A stretch of 23,123 nucleotides of DNA from a virus, in the IMG/VR virus record IMGVR_UViG_3300042397_000103, positions 1 through 23,123 of that record, one strand, 5' to 3'. The position numbers were made by a program, and so were the translations under genes. Under the pieces are notes generated by a model. It was not told where the DNA came from. It saw nothing but the letters and a program-made list of their open reading frames with translations, and did no database searches. Below, one piece after another: positions 1,658 through 21,511 of the stretch (within the stretch, counting starts at the first letter, position 1; each line of letters opens with the position of its first letter).

Positions 1658-3457
1658 TTACAAACTGGTCAACTCGGCAAGCTCCGAATTTGTTAGGCGG
1701 GTCTTGAATAGTAGGGCTTGGTTTGTGTTGTATGCACCAATCCCCGTAGAGCCAGACCACAATACATTCGTTTGCAATTTGTCACACGCAGGAATCGTGG
1801 AAGCGTTCGTTCCCGAAGCTACAAGTGTTCCGTTTTTGTAAAACGCATACGAGCCAGCTTTGTAAGCAAACGCAAGTTTTATCGTTTGACCGACGCTTGG
1901 CGTTGTGGTTTCGTAAAATAAATTTGCAGAACCATTGTAGCTTTGAGCGTATAAGTTTGTGCCGTCTGCACCAAAACGAATTACAAAGTTTGAAGCTTCT
2001 TTTTCTACACCAAAAATAGTTTGGTCTACTGGGATTCCGTTAATTGAACCTTCCCAATATAAAGTCCCCTCCGTCTGCCCAATTAGTGAGCTTATCCCCG
2101 TCTTACTGCAAGCGTCTGCCCCACGTGTTGCGGATGCTGCAAGGGTTGGTATGTAGGATGTTGCGTAGGCTCCTGCTTCAAGTTGTGCGCCCCATAAAAA
2201 CATACCACTTGTGCCATTGCCTAAATAAGCTTCGGGACTTGCCGAGGTTGTGGTTTGCATTAAAGTAGCCATACGCACCTGGCCACCTACTAAAGCAGGA
2301 GAGGTAATAATTACACGGTAAAAACCGTTTGCTGCGCTTTGTATTGAAGCGGTAACTCCAGTGCTGAAATTTACCACAGTTCCCGTTTGCAAGTCAAAAA
2401 GAGCCGTGTGGTCTTTTGCTGGAGTTATTTCAGTTATGTTCAAACGTAAATACCTGCGCTCCGCTTGCTTTGCGTAAATGGAAGCCGTATAAACTCCCGT
2501 GCCACTTGCAAAATTGCTATCCATTGAATGGAAGTTATTTGCAGTATTCTCTACGAATTTATCAGCATTAACGTAACCGTCTGGTGAGGTTGTAGCGTTT
2601 ACTGTAATAGTAGTATTAAACTTGCTCCAATACGCATTATTAAACTGCTCGCTGAATGTTACTAAATTTTGTCGCTGCGGCTCCAGCAACAAGCGGGGGC
2701 AAGTGCTACCTAAATAGTCAAGTCGGGGTACGTTAGCAACGGGGCCAACACTTACCGCTGCTGTGGTGGTGGGGATGTAGTCTGTTGCTCCGAAGTCAGA
2801 AATTTCTACTTGTGCGCCAAAGGCATATCCAGCATTACCACTTGCACTTAACGCACCATCAGAAGCAACGAAGAACGGAACGAAAGAATAGTTAGTCGCA
2901 CTTGTTACTGAAAAGGTTAAACGAACACGATACCACCCGTTAGCCAAAGCCTCCGCAGAGCGACTTAAAATGGTAAACGTACCACCAGTAGTACCAAGCG
3001 CACCAGTAGTTAAATTAAACCAAGATTTAGAACTATTCGCTACGCCATCAGAAGCCTCAATTGAAACCCAGTCAACATTTGACTTCTTAACGTACAATGA
3101 AATGGTGTACGGAACCGCAGCCATTGCAAAAGCAGTTGAACTAACATATCCAACATTTGAAGTTGCGGTAATTAGGTCTGCGGTTGTTGCTCCATTTAAT
3201 GGGTTCGCAATAGCGTTAGACGTTACCGAAGCGTTGTTTTTAGTCCAAGCAGCATTCGCAAAATCCTCCGAGTAGGTAACAAGATTCGTCCGCACCTTCT
3301 CAATAAGGCCCGCAGAATTTACACGGGTAGCCGTATCGCCCGTGCGGGTGAAGGTTAGGTCGCCGCTGCCGTCGGTGGGCTTTTCAGCATATACCTTGCT
3401 TGTCTTATAGCCGCTTGGTATAACCACCAAACTTGCATCATCGTAAAAACTTGACAT
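1658..3457 (-). CDS. Tail fibre / receptor-binding protein with two carbohydrate-binding-like modules and a LamG-like end
   Basis: This 599-residue, Ser/Thr/Ala/Asn-rich beta protein has a modular layout. Residues 1-57 form an N-terminal section with the TFTRTGDTATRVNSAGLIE signature often seen in phage tail or spike proteins. Residues about 58-235 and 264-445 are two diverged copies of one module. Each opens with NLVT(Y/F)SE-F-NA-W, has a mid-module YT-S-Y-K segment and a late NG(W/F)YRV strand, and closes with GAQ(V/L)E plus YIPT. These resemble CBM4/9-type jelly-roll carbohydrate-binding domains. Residues about 462-599 look like a LamG/concanavalin-type sandwich (GTLYWEGSI, YKNGTLVASGT). 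Binding of host surface glycans is the expected role. Its ATG overlaps the stop of the 70-residue gene by one base (TAATG). Confidence 0.82.
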   Translation of the reverse strand: MSSFYDDASLVVIPSGYKTSKVYAEKPTDGSGDLTFTRTGDTATRVNSAGLIEKVRTNLVTYSEDFANAAWTKNNASVTSNAIANPLNGATTADLITATSNVGYVSSTAFAMAAVPYTISLYVKKSNVDWVSIEASDGVANSSKSWFNLTTGALGTTGGTFTILSRSAEALANGWYRVRLTFSVTSATNYSFVPFFVASDGALSASGNAGYAFGAQVEISDFGATDYIPTTTAAVSVGPVANVPRLDYLGSTCPRLLLEPQRQNLVTFSEQFNNAYWSKFNTTITVNATTSPDGYVNADKFVENTANNFHSMDSNFASGTGVYTASIYAKQAERRYLRLNITEITPAKDHTALFDLQTGTVVNFSTGVTASIQSAANGFYRVIITSPALVGGQVRMATLMQTTTSASPEAYLGNGTSGMFLWGAQLEAGAYATSYIPTLAASATRGADACSKTGISSLIGQTEGTLYWEGSINGIPVDQTIFGVEKEASNFVIRFGADGTNLYAQSYNGSANLFYETTTPSVGQTIKLAFAYKAGSYAFYKNGTLVASGTNASTIPACDKLQTNVLWSGSTGIGAYNTNQALLFKTRLTNSELAELTSL

Positions 3458-4214: not shown

Positions 4215-5977
4215 TATTTACGAGGTTTTAAGAATCCTTCATTGGGCATATCTACCGGACGCTTTGCAACCTTTGGGTTATTCGTCTCTGGCTTGACGCC
4301 TGCCTTACGAGCTTGGTTTACCGATACGTCTGCATTCGGGTTTTTAGCGTCTGGAGTTACACCTTCTGCTTTTGCTAAATACGTCTTACGCATCCAAAAG
4401 TGGTGGCAACGTGCGCCTCCCTTGTAGAGCCATATATCGTATGTTGCTGCGCCACGAGGCCCGAATCCTGCGTTAACTTCCTGCTTACGCATACGCATAA
4501 TATCCTCCTTGCGGTAGACCTTCTTTGCGTTTACCATTAACTTACAGAACTCTCGGCTGTTTGCTTTGGTTGCTCCCGGTGCGTAAGCATAACGAATCTT
4601 GTACTTACGTCCGTCTTTTGTTTCACCGTCTTGCTCGCTCTTTGCGTTTGGGAATGCTTCCCCGGTCTTGGCAAACTTTAAAATAGAATCTAAGTATTCC
4701 TCCTGCTCATAGTCTACCGGACGCTCGTCCACCAAATCCCAATTGTCCAAGTCTTCGTCTTCGCCAAACTCGTTTAGCGTTTGAAACATTTTGTTAAGCA
4801 CTTCATCCGACACATCAGCAGATAAAGCAACGCTGCTATCTTCTACGCCTGTATTTTCCTCAATCACCTCGGCAGGAGCGACAATCTCTTCCTTAAACTC
4901 CAACGGCTGCAACGTCTTAAAATAGATGTTTAAAGCAGCTCCGTTGTAGGATAGCACTTGCTCTATTGCATCAAGGATAATCTCCTGTAACGGTCTAATA
5001 ACCACGTTATCGAACAGGATAGATGCCGTCTTCAACTCGTCAGCATTATTACCCAAACCGCTATTGTCCTTAATGCCTAAAAGCATCGGGCTTGTTACCC
5101 GGTGGCCTACCATAATCTTCTTCGTGCATTCCTCGGAAAGGAATTGGTACTGCTCGCTTGCGTCCGATAATTGTACGGGTTCGATTGTTGCTGCGAGTTC
5201 CTTGTTATCGTTAAACGCCAAGATAAACCGACCCGCATTCGAGCTACCGGAAAACTTGTCCGCAATACGTGCCTCAATTAACGTCTGCTCGTCTTCGGTA
5301 GGTGTGCCGTTATTAAAGTTAATCAGCATCGACGGAGCAAGTCCGTTCTTGATGTTGCTGATATGGTAATTGGCTACTTCCTCCTCCAATTCGGCATAAG
5401 GAAGTGAACCTTGGTAGTCCGTTGGGGCGTAGTAGTAGTATCCTGCTTTGTAGGGCTTAATATACAGAATCTCGATTCCTGCTTTGCTCATCCCGTAGGC
5501 ATCAATGCGTACCGGGGTCTCTTTGCGTTGTGCGACCCTATCCCAACTCTTTGCGTAATAGTATGCCGGGATAAACCCTTCTTCGTTGCATTTTTCAGCA
5601 CGTAAGGTCTCCACCGGAATATGCTCAACCTTAACAATCTTGGAATGGTCTTGGTTGTAGATAACTTGGATAGCGGCATTGCCCATCATTTTGAAGTCGG
5701 AAACAACCTTCTTCATACAATCCTTGGTAAACAACGACATCATCATTGCGTACTCGTCGGGCTTTTGTGCGGCATCTGTTGCTGCAAGACCCTTGCCGTA
5801 AATCATATCAATAACGCCATTAATGATAGCATTATTGGTAGGGCTTCCGTTGTAGCGGTCGATTAGGTATTGGAAATAATCGTTACCATCCCCGTACTCA
5901 ATCCAGTTCTTTCCACTAACCTCCTTCACCTGCGGTTTAACGTAGGAGTTCAAGGCCATAAATCTTACATTGCTCAT
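4214..5977 (-). CDS. Portal protein with MuF-like C-terminal domain
   Basis: At 587 residues this is longer than the usual 400-500-residue portal. Residues about 20-360 are portal-like: NAIINGVIDMIYGKG (49-63), the FKMMGNAAIQVIYN strand (95-108), an ISNIKNGLAPSMLINF stretch, and the SPMLLGIKDNSGLGNNADEL region (296-315) followed by the long helix near 320-345. It forms the dodecameric channel for DNA packaging. After an acidic linker (about 365-425), residues 455-535 carry RREF-C type and GGARCHHFW features (C478, C524, H525, H526) like the end of MuF head-morphogenesis proteins. A Lys/Pro-rich tail follows. The gene overlaps its neighbours at both ends and is far from the terminase, which is unusual. 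Confidence 0.92.
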   Translation of the reverse strand: MSNVRFMALNSYVKPQVKEVSGKNWIEYGDGNDYFQYLIDRYNGSPTNNAIINGVIDMIYGKGLAATDAAQKPDEYAMMMSLFTKDCMKKVVSDFKMMGNAAIQVIYNQDHSKIVKVEHIPVETLRAEKCNEEGFIPAYYYAKSWDRVAQRKETPVRIDAYGMSKAGIEILYIKPYKAGYYYYAPTDYQGSLPYAELEEEVANYHISNIKNGLAPSMLINFNNGTPTEDEQTLIEARIADKFSGSSNAGRFILAFNDNKELAATIEPVQLSDASEQYQFLSEECTKKIMVGHRVTSPMLLGIKDNSGLGNNADELKTASILFDNVVIRPLQEIILDAIEQVLSYNGAALNIYFKTLQPLEFKEEIVAPAEVIEENTGVEDSSVALSADVSDEVLNKMFQTLNEFGEDEDLDNWDLVDERPVDYEQEEYLDSILKFAKTGEAFPNAKSEQDGETKDGRKYKIRYAYAPGATKANSREFCKLMVNAKKVYRKEDIMRMRKQEVNAGFGPRGAATYDIWLYKGGARCHHFWMRKTYLAKAEGVTPDAKNPNADVSVNQARKAGVKPETNNPKVAKRPVDMPNEGFLKPRK

Positions 5978-6309
5978 ATAATAACAAACGTATTATCTCC
6001 TGCGGTTTCTTGGTCGTACACCCCGGCGTTCACGGTGAACTTCTCAAAGTTAGTTTGGTCGGTGCAGAATACCCGGCCTCTGTATATCAAATTTACGCCA
6101 CTAAACACCTCCAATAGGTAAAAGTTTTGTGCCTTCAAAGTCCAAGCAGCATTCAAGGTCATATACCCGTTTGCGCTTGTAGGTGCGATTGTTTGCGTTT
6201 GGGTGGTATTGGTGGATTCGTTCGTTAGCCGTGCCGATACAGAAGCAGGAAACGAGCGAGGGATGATTTGCAAATTTTGCGCTGTTGCGCTTGTAGTTAA
6301 AATGTTCAT
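5974..6309 (-). CDS. 111-residue beta-rich protein before portal, function unknown
   Basis: The protein is Thr/Asn/Ser-rich and predicted by eye to be mostly beta strands (for example the WTLKAQNFYLLEVFSG and LIYRGRVFCTD segments), with no membrane helix or signal. It ends in an ATGA overlap with the portal start, so the two are translated together. It begins 42 bases after a strong terminator and so may be the first gene of the portal operon. Small beta-sandwich proteins near the portal are often head decoration, stopper or connector subunits, but nothing here decides between these. Coding is supported by the overlap and by its ATG placed just after the terminator. Confidence 0.7.
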   Translation of the reverse strand: MNILTTSATAQNLQIIPRSFPASVSARLTNESTNTTQTQTIAPTSANGYMTLNAAWTLKAQNFYLLEVFSGVNLIYRGRVFCTDQTNFEKFTVNAGVYDQETAGDNTFVII

Positions 6310-8678: not shown

Positions 8679-9230
8679 TTATTTGTTAAGACGTGCGAGA
8701 ACTCGGTCGATAGCAGTCTCCGGGCTGTTCTGTGCGAGGTTAACTCGTGCAGGCGCAGGGGCTGCTTCTGGGTTGTGGCGGATAGGTGTAGCGGCAGGCA
8801 TATCGCTTGACATCTCCTGCTTCTTTTTAGCCATCTCCTCTTTCATTGCGGACAATTCAGCCCGCATCTCCTCAAGGATAGGCATTACTACCTCCTTGAT
8901 TTTGTCCTCCATAGTTGGCTCGGCGGCTGCTTCAACCTCGATTTCAACTGATGGGGCTTCTTCTTCTACCTCGGCTGTTGCTTCTTTGATTTCACCGATA
9001 ACACCTTCTTCGGCTACAACCAAGATGCGGCCATCCTCCATTTCGTACTCACCGACTGGGACAGCGATACGGTCTTCCTCTGATACGATGAAAATGGGTT
9101 GGCCTGCCTCAAATGATTCAGCTTCCAAGACGGTGCCGTTATCGAGCTTGGCTTGCGCCAACTCAACTTCGGAGGTCTCAACTGCGGACAGCTCGGCAAA
9201 GAATTTTTGGAAAATTTCTGTTGCTTTCAT
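8679..9230 (-). CDS. Capsid scaffolding protein
   Basis: These 183 residues are strongly acidic. An N-terminal beta-type section (about 1-85, with DNGTVLEAESFEAGQPIFIV and EYEMEDGRILVV) is followed by a Glu-rich low-complexity stretch (EVEEEAPSVEIEVEAAAEP). A coiled-coil helix comes next (EDKIKEVVMPILEEMRAELSAMKEEMAKKKQEM), then a Pro/Ala linker and a small basic C-terminal helix (TAIDRVLARLNK). An acidic coiled coil with a basic helical C-terminus directly before the capsid gene is the plan of tailed-phage scaffolds. The protein would line the procapsid and be digested by the protease encoded upstream. The start is the ATG at 9230, with a divergent HNH gene beginning 66 bases away. Confidence 0.85.
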   Translation of the reverse strand: MKATEIFQKFFAELSAVETSEVELAQAKLDNGTVLEAESFEAGQPIFIVSEEDRIAVPVGEYEMEDGRILVVAEEGVIGEIKEATAEVEEEAPSVEIEVEAAAEPTMEDKIKEVVMPILEEMRAELSAMKEEMAKKKQEMSSDMPAATPIRHNPEAAPAPARVNLAQNSPETAIDRVLARLNK

Positions 9231-9296
9231 AGTTTTTATGTCTATAAAGGAGACTCAACAATTTTGATATGTTACATTTTTGACCTACATTGCGAT
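9231..9296. other. Divergent intergenic region between scaffold and HNH gene
   Basis: This A+T-rich 66-base gap is the only place in the window where two starts face away from each other. It would have to hold a plus-strand promoter for the HNH gene. I see TTTTG and TTACATTTTTG, loosely like the Bacteroidota -33 TTTG and -7 TAnnTTTG elements, but they are too close together to call a promoter. Confidence 0.3.
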
Positions 9297-10076
9297 ATGG
9301 TTAAGCGACAATACAAGGTTAAGGATTCAAATGTTGAGTTATTGAATGACTATATTAAAAACGTAAACATTGTATTTCAGGATGAGTTGTTAGAGGAGGA
9401 GACTGGCGATGGTGATGATTTTTATATAAACTATTTTCCAATTTTGCCTGGTACTATTATAGAGGCGCAACAAACTTGTGGCGTTTACGGAAAAGACGTT
9501 CCAGGGATTGTTGGCTCACACGTTATGTGTAGTGGGTGTGATAAAATAGGCAAAGTAATAAAACATACCATATTATCAAGATTTGAAATGCACGATAGTT
9601 GCGTATCGTTCAAAGTTTCAAATTGCTCGTCTTGTCAAGCTAAAAAGGTTAGCAAAAGCAATAAAAAGAGAATGGCTGCTGATGAGGACTTTGAATTTTT
9701 GACAAAATTTAGAATTGCTCACGCAACAAGGTTAAGAATGTTGCTTATGTCCGGAGAGAAGAAAAAATCATTCTACAAGCTAATCGGTTGCGATGCTGAA
9801 ACATTGATAAAACACATATCATCACATTTTGAGCCAGGTATGTCAGCAAACAACTACGGTAAAAAGGGATGGGCAATAGACCACTTGATTCCTTTAAGCT
9901 GGGCAAGGAGCAGGGAGGAACTCTTTAAGCTTTGTCATTATACGAATCTTGCGCCAAAATGGAATGCGGACAATATCCGCAAGGGTAACAAGTATGGGGA
10001 AATCATTACCGAACAAGGAATTATACGCATAACAAGGGAAGATTACAACAATCTTATTGAGGAACCTTCACGGTAA
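9297..10076 (+). CDS. HNH endonuclease, probable free-standing homing enzyme
   Basis: This is the only convincing plus-strand gene. From the ATG at 9297 it encodes 259 residues. The frame is open further 5' but that part lies inside the scaffold gene. Two CxxC pairs (C78/C81 and C110/C113) suggest a zinc-ribbon. The C-terminal third carries the HNH core: GMSANNYGKKGWAIDHLIPLS (D195, H196), CHYTNLAPKW (N217), and NADNIRKGNK (N228). This is the form seen in many phage-encoded HNH nucleases that cut DNA and spread by homing. It breaks the protease-scaffold operon, is visibly more A+T-rich than its flanks, and overlaps the end of the 46-residue gene tail to tail by 23 bases. All of this points to an inserted element. 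Confidence 0.9.
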   Translation: MVKRQYKVKDSNVELLNDYIKNVNIVFQDELLEEETGDGDDFYINYFPILPGTIIEAQQTCGVYGKDVPGIVGSHVMCSGCDKIGKVIKHTILSRFEMHDSCVSFKVSNCSSCQAKKVSKSNKKRMAADEDFEFLTKFRIAHATRLRMLLMSGEKKKSFYKLIGCDAETLIKHISSHFEPGMSANNYGKKGWAIDHLIPLSWARSREELFKLCHYTNLAPKWNADNIRKGNKYGEIITEQGIIRITREDYNNLIEEPSR

Positions 10077-18066: not shown

Positions 18067-19227
18067 TCAACGGATAGAATACCTACCGTAGTTTGGTTTA
18101 GAAAGTTTATTGTACACGGCGTAACGTGCCGCATCGAGGGCGTGATTCATTACGTCTATCGGCTTGTTAAGCAGGTTGCCGTTCTTGTCCTCCGTCCATT
18201 TATAGTTTTGAAGCTCTTTAATTAGGTTGTTGCTTCGTGCTGTTGCAAACAACTTATGCCGTTTAAGAATATCAATACCTGCGTTAATTGAATCTTGCCC
18301 CTTGGCTGTTGGCTTTACGTTCCACCCGAATCGGTGCAGTTCCTCGATTGATTTCGGTTCTGCGCTATCCGCAAAGATTTCATCCCTCCGGTCAAGGCCA
18401 AGCGACTGCAAATGGTTGTGCAGGTCTCGGTTTGTCATCCCGGTTCGGTAGAGCAACTCGTCCAAGTAAAGATTGTCCCCGTGTTGGTAGATTGCCACAA
18501 TAGCGGACGGGTCATTTGTAAAACCAAAGTCAAGGCCATAGGAAAGTAGTTTTGCTTCTTGCGGGATTTCGGACGTTCCGAATTGAAAGATTGTTGCTCG
18601 GCTCATACCACGTTCACCCAGGCCGTAGATACGCCAATAGTCTTCGTCCGTGTATTGCAGACGTTCAATCTCGTTTACTATATTTTGGTCAAGGAATGGG
18701 TTATCCTTGTAGGTACTTTGTATGTACGTTACATCGTCTCTTGTAAGCAAGCGGTCGTAAATCCAATGGAAAGATTCTGAAGGGTTGTAGTCTATCCATA
18801 TCTTTCCAGTAGTACGAACCAAGAGCTGAAAGAAGTCCTCCCAAGTCAGTTCGTTTGCTTCGTTGCAGAATAGGTAGTCCCGCCTTGCTCCACGTTTCTT
18901 TTGCGGTTGGTCTAACGAAAGGAACTCAAACAAGTTTCCGTTAAGCGTGTAGGTAAGGTCTGATTTGTTATGCTGCTTTTCGTCGTACAAGTCCATCGCC
19001 TTTACGATTTCCATAAAGTCCCGATAAGCGGTCATTTTAAGCGACGGCAGCGACTTACGCACAATAGATATAACCTTACCCCGTTCTTGCATTGCCAGGA
19101 TAACCAGCATCTGCAATATGGAATAAGTTTTGCCACTTCGTGAGCCACCTTGATTAACTACTATCCGTGTTGGTGCGGTGTAGTTCTTCTCAAAGAGTTC
19201 ACTTGTCTTGACTTCCAGAACGGACAA
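18067..19227 (-). CDS. terL: Terminase large subunit
   Basis: This 386-residue ATPase-nuclease motor of DNA packaging has Walker A GGSRSGKT (27-34), a Walker B-type region RRDYLFCNEANE (115-126), and the coupling segment KIWIDYNPSESFHWIYDRLL (142-161). The linker TYKDNPFLDQNIVNEIERL (172-190) follows. The RNase H-like nuclease has D233 in YGLDFGFTNDP, D287 in DEIFADSAEPKS and D365 in NHALDAARYA. It is like PBSX-family terminases and is on the short side, which is normal for this group. The frame has a stop just upstream and no ATG before codon 40, so translation should start at the TTG at 19227, 29 bases inside the small subunit gene. Confidence 0.95.
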   Translation of the reverse strand: MSVLEVKTSELFEKNYTAPTRIVVNQGGSRSGKTYSILQMLVILAMQERGKVISIVRKSLPSLKMTAYRDFMEIVKAMDLYDEKQHNKSDLTYTLNGNLFEFLSLDQPQKKRGARRDYLFCNEANELTWEDFFQLLVRTTGKIWIDYNPSESFHWIYDRLLTRDDVTYIQSTYKDNPFLDQNIVNEIERLQYTDEDYWRIYGLGERGMSRATIFQFGTSEIPQEAKLLSYGLDFGFTNDPSAIVAIYQHGDNLYLDELLYRTGMTNRDLHNHLQSLGLDRRDEIFADSAEPKSIEELHRFGWNVKPTAKGQDSINAGIDILKRHKLFATARSNNLIKELQNYKWTEDKNGNLLNKPIDVMNHALDAARYAVYNKLSKPNYGRYSIR

Positions 19228-19513
19228 TCTCTACCTTAATTGAAGTTAGTTCCTCTGCTACCTCGTGCGAGTTCTCTACCCGTGCCAGCTTTGGAGTTGT
19301 ATACTCCGCCATCTTGTTTAAGATATCGAGTGCTGCTTTTGGGTCTTCTGCTGCTACGTCAGATAACCAAATGGTCATATTCTCCAAGTTATCCTCAATG
19401 AGCTTTTGGAACGCTTCTCGGATTTTGCCTGTTGATTTGTTAGGAACTCCAGCGGGTCTACCATTGGGGTTGCCTGATACGCCTTTAACAAGATTGGGAT
19501 TACCTCTTGGCAT
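19199..19513 (-). CDS. terS: Probable terminase small subunit (DUF5681-like N-terminal motif)
   Basis: The 104-residue protein starts MPRGNPNLVKGVSGNPNGRP, the Gly-Asn-Pro-Asn-Gly-Arg-Pro motif of DUF5681-type proteins found next to terminase genes. A basic helical segment (KIREAFQKLIEDNLENMTIWL) and a Lys/Ala helix (DPKAALDILNKMAEYTTPKLA) follow, then a short Val/Ser-rich end. Small, helical and directly upstream of the large subunit, it is the expected DNA-recognising partner. The large subunit starts inside its last 29 bases, so translation is likely coupled. It is shorter than many small subunits, and the DNA-binding part is inferred, not proven. The ATG at 19513 lies beyond a perfect 15-base palindrome. 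Confidence 0.78.
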   Translation of the reverse strand: MPRGNPNLVKGVSGNPNGRPAGVPNKSTGKIREAFQKLIEDNLENMTIWLSDVAAEDPKAALDILNKMAEYTTPKLARVENSHEVAEELTSIKVEIVRSGSQDK

Positions 19514-19538: not shown

Positions 19539-20510
19539 TTAACTCAATTTCTGCAAACGCTCCAACCGCAAGTCGTTAAAGTCGTGAATGTTAAAGTTGG
19601 TGGTCATATCCTCGTGCAGGGTCAAGGCAATATCCCCGGCTTTGTTTGGGTTCTCGTGTAGGTATTTAATTGCCTTATTCCAATCGCCGTTATGCTTTAC
19701 AGCGATGCAGTTCTTATCCGTTAGGTGTTGTGAGTATGGTGCAACATCACTTACAATTAACGCACAACCAGCAAAGCCTGCTTCTACCATTTTTAGGTTG
19801 GACTTACAGCGATTGAACTCACTTGGCAGTAATGGAGCCAATGCAACGTCAAACGCTTGGTATAACTTTCCGTATTCCTCTGGGGATTGTGTTTGTAATG
19901 CGAATCTTGCTTTTGCAGCTTCGGGGTATCCACCAAGGTCGGCAACATAGGATTCGTAAGGTGAAAGGTCTATCTTGTTTTGGATAAGGTCTGGAAGGTG
20001 GGATATACCTGCCACGTAACCAAAGCGCACCTCGTCAGATTCTTGACGGGTTATTTGCCATTGCGGGTCTGCGGGGTCTAATCCGTTTGGAATGATATGC
20101 ACGTTACGGTTTACCTTCTTAATCTTATCGGCTAAATACTTTTGGGTAGTCCATACCTCGTCTGCGAAGTACATTGAGTTTACTATCCTCCCTGATAAGT
20201 TTGCTTTGTCGTATGTTGCTTTTGAAGGGTGGTCTAATGCCAAGTGCCACCAATCGTCGTTATCAATTATAACCTTCTTTCCGGTTGCCTTGCAGATAGC
20301 AAAAAAGTTAGCAAAGGATTCACCGGAGAACGGAAGCGCACGGGAAAATATAACGTGGGTAACGTCCTCCCAATCGGCTTCGGGTATTGGCTGTTTGTAG
20401 TTGAGTATCTGAAAATCTAAAAGCCCTTTCTCCTTTAACAGAGTGAAGGGCTTGTAAATCCGGTGGTACACCACTCCGGAGTTTTGGTCTCCAAGGCAAA
20501 GGACTTTCAT
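19539..20510 (-). CDS. Glycosyltransferase, GT-B-like (GT4-type)
   Basis: The 323-residue protein begins MKVLCLGDQNSGVVYHRIYKPFTLLKEKG, a Rossmann-type start. The first half has KKVIIDNDDWWHLALDHPS (78-96) and DEVWTTQKYLADKI. The hinge has HIIPNGLDP (138-146). The second half has RFGYVAGISHLPDL (162-175) and the donor-binding-like MVEAGFAGCALIVSDVAPYS (about 243-262). This matches the two-domain GT-B plan. The usual EX7E motif is only loosely present, so the donor cannot be named. The gene is coupled by a 4-base overlap to a GT-A-type transferase upstream and precedes the terminase, suggesting the two act together on DNA, virion or host glycan. Confidence 0.8.
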   Translation of the reverse strand: MKVLCLGDQNSGVVYHRIYKPFTLLKEKGLLDFQILNYKQPIPEADWEDVTHVIFSRALPFSGESFANFFAICKATGKKVIIDNDDWWHLALDHPSKATYDKANLSGRIVNSMYFADEVWTTQKYLADKIKKVNRNVHIIPNGLDPADPQWQITRQESDEVRFGYVAGISHLPDLIQNKIDLSPYESYVADLGGYPEAAKARFALQTQSPEEYGKLYQAFDVALAPLLPSEFNRCKSNLKMVEAGFAGCALIVSDVAPYSQHLTDKNCIAVKHNGDWNKAIKYLHENPNKAGDIALTLHEDMTTNFNIHDFNDLRLERLQKLS

Positions 20511-21037
20511 TTCAAATAGTTATAGTAACAAAGATAAGCATCGAGCGTCTTGGTATTCCATTTAGCCATCTGTTGAGCAAACAATCCATCTGCTTCGTAT
20601 TCGTTTCCGAATCTTACTTCCCCTATTGCATCGCAACGTACCATAAACGAGGCGGTATCTATTGTGCCTACTCTTGGTTCTTTGGTTGGGTGTAATCTTG
20701 GTTGGCCATTCTTGAATACCTGCCCCCAAGTGATAAACGGATAGGATTCGTTTTTAACGGCTTCGTACCAATCCGGGTGGATTATATTGTCATCGTCGAG
20801 AAAGTATATGTAATCGCTTCTTTTGGCCTTTAGAGCCAATATAAACTCCATACCGACGTTTCGTAGTGGATGACCCCAACTACCGGATACGTTTGGGCGT
20901 AGGTAAGTAATTCCGTTTGGGAACTCGCCTGTTGCTTTCTCGTCAACGACTACCGTCCAACTGCAATCCTCCGGGATGGTTTGTTTGATTGTTGTTAAGT
21001 TCCCAGGGCGGGAACACGGTGTAATGATGTGAATCAT
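20507..21037 (-). CDS. Glycosyltransferase, GT-A-like (family 2-type)
   Basis: The 176-residue protein begins MIHIITPCSRPGNLTTIKQTIP, the nucleotide-binding start of GT-A transferases. It has SGSWGHPLRNVGMEFILALK (51-70) and the metal-binding DDD motif in YIYFLDDDNIIHPDWYEA (D81-D83). A later DTASFMVRCDAIGEVRFGNEYEADGLF segment fits the acceptor side, with EAD as a possible catalytic acid. It is shorter than most family 2 enzymes and has no membrane segment. ATGA overlaps tie it to the HNH gene upstream and to the GT-B-type gene downstream. A pair of different folds acting in sequence would transfer two sugars. The acceptor is unknown. Confidence 0.8.
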   Translation of the reverse strand: MIHIITPCSRPGNLTTIKQTIPEDCSWTVVVDEKATGEFPNGITYLRPNVSGSWGHPLRNVGMEFILALKAKRSDYIYFLDDDNIIHPDWYEAVKNESYPFITWGQVFKNGQPRLHPTKEPRVGTIDTASFMVRCDAIGEVRFGNEYEADGLFAQQMAKWNTKTLDAYLCYYNYLK

Positions 21038-21288
21038 TTGTTGAGCTTTTTTAGGTGTACGGCTTTTAGGAAATCTTTTGACAATTCAACACCAAAGTCT
21101 GCTTCGTGGTGACATTCCCGGCACAAGGCCATTAAGTTCTCTGGCGTATCTAAAAGTTTACTACCGCCCATACCTCTCGGTTCGATATGGTGAATATCTA
21201 CCGCACGGCGATTGCACACCTCGCAAGGAATAAACTCGACTGGGGATAACCCCATTGCCTTTAAGTAAACTTTAGTGTGATTCTTCAT
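21034..21288 (-). CDS. Small HNH endonuclease
   Basis: From the ATG at 21288 the product has 84 residues. An earlier ATG at 21318 adds ten residues but overlaps the preceding gene by 47 bases, and MKNHTKVYLKAMGL is a natural start. The zinc-binding HNH core is complete: C22xxC25, H33 and H34 in DIHHIEPRGMGG, N51 in TPENLMALC, and C56xxC59-H60. Small HNH proteins upstream of the terminase are common in tailed phages and in some systems (HK97) are needed with the large terminase for specific cutting at cos. A cos-type packaging role is therefore possible, although two glycosyltransferases separate it from the terminase here. Confidence 0.88.
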   Translation of the reverse strand: MKNHTKVYLKAMGLSPVEFIPCEVCNRRAVDIHHIEPRGMGGSKLLDTPENLMALCRECHHEADFGVELSKDFLKAVHLKKLNK

Positions 21289-21511
21289 AATGTTCTCCCG
21301 TGTTTCCGTTTTGGCCAATGATATTCATTCGCTTATTCAATTCCTCTTCCTCGTCTTGCCAGCGTGCGTGGTTAGCGCATACGGACTTTTTAGCAAGATT
21401 CTTGTCAACAAACCGAACCCACATCTTTGCGGCTACCGCTTGGCGTTGGGGTTTGAATGGATAGGTGCTGCGTAAACGAGCCATTGCTATCCGCATAAAT
21501 TGTTCTTTCAT
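21272..21511 (-). CDS. 79-residue basic protein, function unknown
   Basis: The protein begins MKEQFMRIAMARLRSTYPFKPQRQAVAAKMWVRFVDKNLAKKSVCANHARWQDEEEEL (about 60 residues summarised) and ends polar. It is Arg/Lys-rich in the first half and acidic in the second, with no membrane helix. The start codon overlaps the preceding gene by ATGA. It overlaps the HNH gene by 17 bases, so all four genes from 21869 to 21034 are coupled. I do not recognise a family. A small nucleic-acid-binding or regulatory protein would suit the composition and the position, but there is no motif for this. Confidence 0.6.
   Translation of the reverse strand: MKEQFMRIAMARLRSTYPFKPQRQAVAAKMWVRFVDKNLAKKSVCANHARWQDEEEELNKRMNIIGQNGNTGEHYEESH

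Follow-up and report, generated by a model that had tools for sequence, protein, structure and literature searches.

The window, by which we mean the whole stretch of DNA analysed here, a linear virus record of 23,123 bases, carries two overlapping genes for glycosyltransferases of different predicted fold placed just before the terminase genes. All close relatives in the analysis that extend far enough to show the pair have it, with or without DNA-modification genes beside it. We propose that the two enzymes are soluble and act sequentially on one acceptor, most likely a virion protein, building a short glycan that is often methyl-capped; we regard the chances that this reading is correct as evenly balanced. 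Phage-encoded glycosyltransferases are common, and their acceptors are rarely known. It was known before that phages have clusters of glycosyltransferases, that virions can be glycosylated and that DNA can be glucosylated. What is new is the GT-A family itself, which has no PHROG, along with its fixed GT-B partner of PHROG 7162, the TylF-like methyltransferase that usually joins them, and the constant presence of this family among the relatives covered here. No description of such a cassette was found among the open-licence papers listed in literature searches.

Two overlapping glycosyltransferase genes upstream of the terminase

All genes of the locus lie on the minus strand. Their order is an HNH nuclease gene (21034–21318; Pfam HNH, 1.2e-7); directly downstream of it, the gene for the GT-A-fold glycosyltransferase, of 176 aa (20507–21037); the gene for the GT-B-fold, GT4-like glycosyltransferase, of 323 aa (19539–20510); a putative small terminase subunit (19199–19513), so called from its position and from a weak Pfam match to DUF5681 (8.9e-5, below the cut-off); and the large terminase subunit, TerL (18067–19227; Pfam Terminase_3, 2.1e-28, and Terminase_3C, 1.6e-18). 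The stop of the GT-A gene and the start of the GT-B gene overlap in an ATGA (20507–20510), and the stop of the HNH gene overlaps the start of the GT-A gene in the same way, which suggests translational coupling. A scan for promoters and terminators gave values near shuffle level. An earlier note on this DNA had described two coupled glycosyltransferases of different folds, overlapping just upstream of the terminase; both ORFs are in place, the overlap is read from the sequence and AlphaFold models give the two folds, so that this description stands. The best-placed matches of TerL in cultured phages belong to phages of Parabacteroides, Bacteroides and Phocaeicola (about 42%; best 20 of 1,124 records), which points to a host that is probably a member of the Bacteroidota.

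The GT-A gene product is predicted to be a domain of GT-A fold, GT2/GT43-like, with an acidic DXD-type motif. It matches Pfam Glycos_transf_2 at 1.1e-3, below the cut-off, and no PHROG, as is also the case for its relatives in loci L174 and L140; sequence-based searches against solved structures yielded nothing useful. The AlphaFold (AF2) model, built with 25 aligned sequences, has a mean pLDDT of 93.7. When this model was used in Foldseek, human GlcAT-P/S/I (GT43) came at the top (GlcAT-P, 3.9e-10, the others weaker), followed by AvpGT and TarP. On VIA-align, WrtF (Z 19.5, rmsd 2.2, 166 aligned), TarS (Z 18.9, rmsd 2.3, 165 aligned), SpsA (Z 17.7) and GlcAT-I (Z 17.5, rmsd 3.0, 172 aligned) score close together, so the protein resembles the GT-A fold and no single family. 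Fold and acidic motif are shared with the GT43 enzymes GlcAT-P/S/I and the GT2-type enzymes TarP and TarS, but the window protein differs from them in being a core only and in having no GT43 profile match: PF03360 does not match it at E up to 1, and against one GT-A relative this profile reaches 0.022 (15.0 bits, below the cut-off of 27). The DDD motif that had been pointed out at residues 81–83 is real: D81, D82 and D83 are invariant in 25/25 aligned rows, and so are N84, H87, P88, R114, D127 and D150. A distant relative of this protein (32%) lies in a Pelagibacteraceae chromosome stretch (L143, 7974–16349) near what were recognized by eye as sugar-nucleotide/glycan genes.

For the GT-B gene product, a two-domain GT-B fold of GT4-like type is predicted. 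The protein belongs to PHROG 7162, 'glycosyltransferase' (E 3.1e-49), residues 8–321 aligning with positions 9–307 of the 309 in the profile, that is, over its full length; the match to Pfam Glyco_trans_1_2 (2.3e-5, 24.8 bits) falls 0.2 bits short of the cut-off of 25. Its AF2 model has a pLDDT of 87.4, and the lead Foldseek matches are 7qsg (1.5e-12), PglA (4.1e-12) and BshA. On VIA-align, sucrose-phosphate synthase (Z 25.6, rmsd 3.1, 306 aligned) and MshA (Z 25.0, rmsd 3.1, 300 aligned) are among the best 50 matches listed, which span Z 25.6–20.6 over 276–306 residues; none of these 50 is a T4 alpha-GT or beta-GT chain, an absence that carries no evidential weight.

Constancy of the pair and its methyltransferase partner

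Both genes are genuine and not chance ORFs, as judged by the 68 loci found with the GT-A query, the 111 stretches (80 of them kept) found with the GT-B query, and values of dN/dS similar to those of TerL. In pairwise comparison with the window, dN/dS is 0.052–0.070 for GT-A (5 relatives), 0.017–0.075 for GT-B (4 relatives) and 0.033–0.081 for TerL (4 relatives).

Relatives were fetched by TerL in order to keep their selection independent of the glycosyltransferase genes. The set comprised the best 80 of 480 matches, with a TerL identity of at least 81%; 78 were used, TerL being cut by the contig end in the other two. Where a locus reaches at least 4 kb upstream of TerL, both glycosyltransferase genes are always present (35/35), and the count is 61/61 when the limit is set at 2 kb. 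The 17 loci with less than 2 kb all lack one or both genes and are too short to count. Among 130 distinct contigs (the finds of the glycosyltransferase queries and the window itself), the pair is present in each of the 66 that contain HNH together with TerL, but here the glycosyltransferases had served to select the contigs. For the census of neighbouring genes, the loci were scanned with HMMs made from seeds. Addition of the TerL set raised the total to 183 contigs, 113 of them with both landmarks (HNH and TerL); in these, GT-A was found in 105, GT-B in 103 and the methyltransferase described below in 72. In all ten contigs in which a glycosyltransferase is missing, the stretch before TerL is shorter than 2 kb.

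The constancy of the pair in close relatives points to a shared sugar-adding role, most likely on the phage particle. Its reach is that of a clade. When 395 more distant genomes were searched, 16 had a TerL match at 1e-60 (40–50% identity in the matches listed), and in none of these 16 was GT-A matched at 1e-10; two of the 395 had a GT-A match at this threshold, both without a TerL match at 1e-60. Therefore, the pair marks a clade and not a terminase type, and phages of this kind do not depend on it generally.

A third gene accompanies the pair in most loci. It codes for a TylF/Methyltransf_24-like methyltransferase (Methyltransf_24, 8.3e-18; TylF, 4e-4) and is present in 25/35 of the loci that were chosen by TerL and reach at least 4 kb upstream, and in 41/61 of those reaching at least 2 kb. 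TylF-type enzymes methylate sugars. The three genes cluster in varied order (GTA-GTB, GTA-MT-GTB, GTA-GTB-MT and GTB-GTA-MT), and in a few contigs GTB is located after TerL. The association extends to more distant DNA: in a contig of a Chitinophagia MAG, a GT-A gene (36% identical) is followed by a methyltransferase gene (53% identical), and in a contig of a TM6 MAG a Methyltransf_24 gene precedes a distant GT-A gene. Searches of cultured phages by tblastn with the window GT-A and with its Chitinophagia relative gave zero matches, and so did a scan of viral contigs with the Chitinophagia relative.

DNA-modification genes in the same interval

In many relatives, the interval before TerL also holds DNA-modification genes. 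Among the 113 two-landmark contigs there are 18 with Mom, 18 with an N6/N4-methyltransferase (MTase), 18 with a C5-MTase, one with TET and one with TAGT; within the stretch covered, none of these five families occurs in 65 of the 113 contigs, nor in 21 of the 35 TerL-selected loci. The identities were checked with Pfam in relatives (TAGT, PF20691, 3.5e-10; Tet_JBP, PF12851, 2.6e-10; C5-MTase, 1.8e-68). Patchy genes of this sort around constant glycosyltransferases indicate that the region is a hotspot of exchangeable DNA-modification genes, and that the pair is independent of any one of them. The earlier note had seen no sugar-nucleotide or base-modifying gene beside the pair, which fits the window but does not carry over to the relatives, where base-modifying genes stand at the same place.

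Several of these neighbouring genes deserve mention. A Mom-family gene (PF25680, 3.7e-49) lies near TerL at L121, 10620–11372, and many relatives have Mom after a ParB-like gene. In some relatives, a PAPS-reductase-like gene (PHROG 424, 2.3e-18; no Pfam match above the cut-off) stands between HNH and GT-A, as at L119, 3822–4676. The order at L190, 3765–9234, is HNH, GT-A, ParB, TAGT and TET/JBP, then TerL and a GT-B-family gene; there, the PHROG labels are 'queuine tRNA-ribosyltransferase' for TET and 'beta-glucosyl-HMC-alpha-glucosyltransferase' for TAGT. The contig to which L190 belongs (G011; 43,471 bases, L190–L192) was rejected as a single genome and looks like two related phages that were joined in the assembly: it has two TerL and two GT-A genes, its matching stretches are 71–81% identical, and a C5-MTase gene lies in the second half.

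As the locus is a hotspot of DNA modification, hypermodification of DNA remains a real rival, although we consider it unlikely. According to this explanation, the glycosyltransferases would add sugar to an altered phage base before packaging, as a means of counter-restriction. The pair adjoins the terminase, genes of the five families share its locus in relatives, and the 5 of 183 contigs that bear TET or TAGT all carry GT-B as well (the L190 stretch, which has both, lies outside this count). Also in line with it, the PHROG label of the partner methyltransferase is 'DNA methyltransferase'. DNA glycosylation of the known kind requires a hydroxymethylated base. For T-even phages, PMC13216743 describes DNA glucosylation by glycosyltransferases as established, and as needing such a base. 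The folds of the T-even alpha- and beta-GT and of TAGT, GT-A and GT-B, are those predicted for the window pair, and a few relatives have TET/TAGT at the same locus. However, the window enzymes stand outside these families: at E up to 1, neither of them matches TAGT (PF20691), T4 alpha-GT (PF11440) or beta-GT (PF09198) in Pfam.

To look for hydroxymethylated-base markers, 15 records of 22–34 kb, namely the window (a fragment) and 14 relatives, were searched with profiles of four families. The thymidylate-synthase family was found in one record (G013) and not in the window, a C5-MTase in one other (G016), and TAGT and TET in 0/15; the TET model matched none of 14 control genomes but did match the L190 protein. 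Thus 13 of the 15 records lack all four families, and from these the pair seems independent of hydroxymethylated bases. In four of the 13 (G003, G004, G014 and G015), classed as linear in IMG/VR, the ends overlap by 123–152 bases at 98.7–100% identity, and these records are probably complete at about 29–31 kb. The end-overlap test covered eight records and gave 90.8% over 2,455 columns for G001, unequal partial overlaps for G012 and G013, and none for G007. In G003, a near relative, matches at 1e-3 were obtained for 41 ORFs and came from 19 Pfam families; a ParB-N6/N4-MTase was among these, whereas thymidylate synthase, TET, sugar-nucleotide enzymes, flippase and GtrA were not. The thymidylate-synthase-family gene of G013 (9135–9761; 6.1e-15) lies upstream of the pair; its product may be an ordinary ThyA, or else an enzyme that hydroxymethylates nucleotides.

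Glycosylation of hydroxymethylated DNA, an idea raised by the TAGT and TET genes of a sister phage, is therefore lowered by the constancy of the pair where they are absent, and the same contrast between a constant pair and patchy modification genes weighs against DNA as the acceptor in general. The cluster of phage phi92 bears on this question from both sides. Its gp164 and gp163 belong to the same GT-B family, PHROG 7162 (about 30% identity over 98–99% of the length; best 40 of 141 records), and likewise lie within a cluster of several glycosyltransferases, one protein of which is weakly TAGT-like (6.5e-5, below the cut-off); yet the phi92-like phages, in which this family occurs, are reported to be restriction-sensitive. 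The phi92 cluster differs from that of the window: gp166 and gp165 have no detectable kinship to the window GT-A, the phi92-like records listed are genomes of 140–155 kb, and no terminase lies within the 17 kb of phi92 examined. Kinship of the window GT-A to gp166, gp165 or TAGT was looked for with BLASTP or hhalign and not found; the best hhalign probability was 7%, obtained when the GT-A alignment was compared with the L190 TAGT.

Proposed acceptor on the virion and other possible targets

The reading that we favour, glycosylation of a virion protein, would proceed as follows. The GT-A enzyme, inverting by analogy, would add one sugar taken from host nucleotide sugars, and the GT-B enzyme, retaining by analogy, would add one from the same source to the same acceptor, the two acting one after the other. 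The product would be a short, probably two-sugar glycan, to which in many relatives the third enzyme, of TylF/Methyltransf_24 type, would add a methyl group. As the genes are joined to packaging and structural genes, late expression would be expected, the acceptor being most likely a capsid or tail protein. There is precedent in mycobacteriophages, whose own glycosyltransferases attach sugars to capsid and tail-tube proteins (PMC12363180 and PMC12619734). These systems (Che8, Corndog and Myrna) have phage-encoded glycosyltransferases in common with the window, and among the BFVD structural matches of the window GT-A a Che8 glycosyltransferase (Q855A2) ranks 49th (E 5.4e-6). They differ in their hosts, and the likeness is at the level of the fold only.

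The earlier suggestion of a Ser/Thr-rich fibre as the acceptor is weakly borne out. When S+T was counted in the minus-strand genes listed, a tail protein (1658–3457) had the highest content (22.7%) and a small protein at 5974–6309 the richest 30-residue stretch (40%), but no strong Ser/Thr tract or marked cluster in the virion proteins singles out an acceptor.

It is improbable, in our judgement, that the sugars are added to a small molecule or protein of the host, for instance to disarm a defence factor, with the position of the pair beside the terminase being incidental. Many DNA-modification genes of counter-defence type lie in the locus, and the structural matches of GT-B include the small-molecule transferases BshA and MshA. 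Counter-defence genes are usually patchy, however, while this pair is under purifying selection and without exception in the 35 terminase-selected loci.

Gtr-type serotype-conversion cassettes consist of a membrane glycosyltransferase and a GtrA flippase. In the window, the highest KD19 hydropathy is 0.76 for GT-A and 1.40 for GT-B, so neither enzyme has a clear membrane segment, and the cassette does not resemble the Gtr type in this respect or in the Pfam matches of G003, which are without GtrA. Modification of a host cell-envelope glycan, which would serve receptor masking, superinfection exclusion or a serotype-like change, is very doubtful: the structural neighbours do include cell-wall and glycan enzymes (TarS, TarP and WrtF for GT-A, PglA for GT-B), and the distant Pelagibacteraceae relative does lie in a glycan-gene neighbourhood, as judged by eye, but the missing membrane segments count against a membrane-anchored role and neither flippase nor GtrA is among the 19 Pfam families of G003. 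From the list of acceptors proposed earlier (phage DNA, virion, host surface), decoration of the virion is therefore retained as the favoured candidate, the evidence having lowered the options of hydroxymethylated DNA and host envelope.

Taken at the level of the clade, virion glycosylation may be a core trait of small (about 30 kb), probably Bacteroidota phages, a possibility to which we give somewhat less than even weight. Their particles would bear a coat of phage-built, often methylated short glycan, made by two transferases usually accompanied by an O-methyltransferase, and in the interval next to the terminase there would be free exchange of genes for Mom, for TET-TAGT and for the methylation of adenine and cytosine. 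A single locus would then be the site at which the glycosylation of particles and the modification of genomes evolve in parallel. If this is true, virion glycosylation, documented in mycobacteriophages, extends to small phages of another phylum.

Outside this locus, the window has an ORF on the opposite strand (9153–10076, plus strand), flanked on one side by a protease gene and on the other by the structural gene that comes next. It has no Pfam match and looks HNH-nuclease-like by eye; in G001 its place is taken by a short gap only. It is a possible free-standing homing endonuclease gene.
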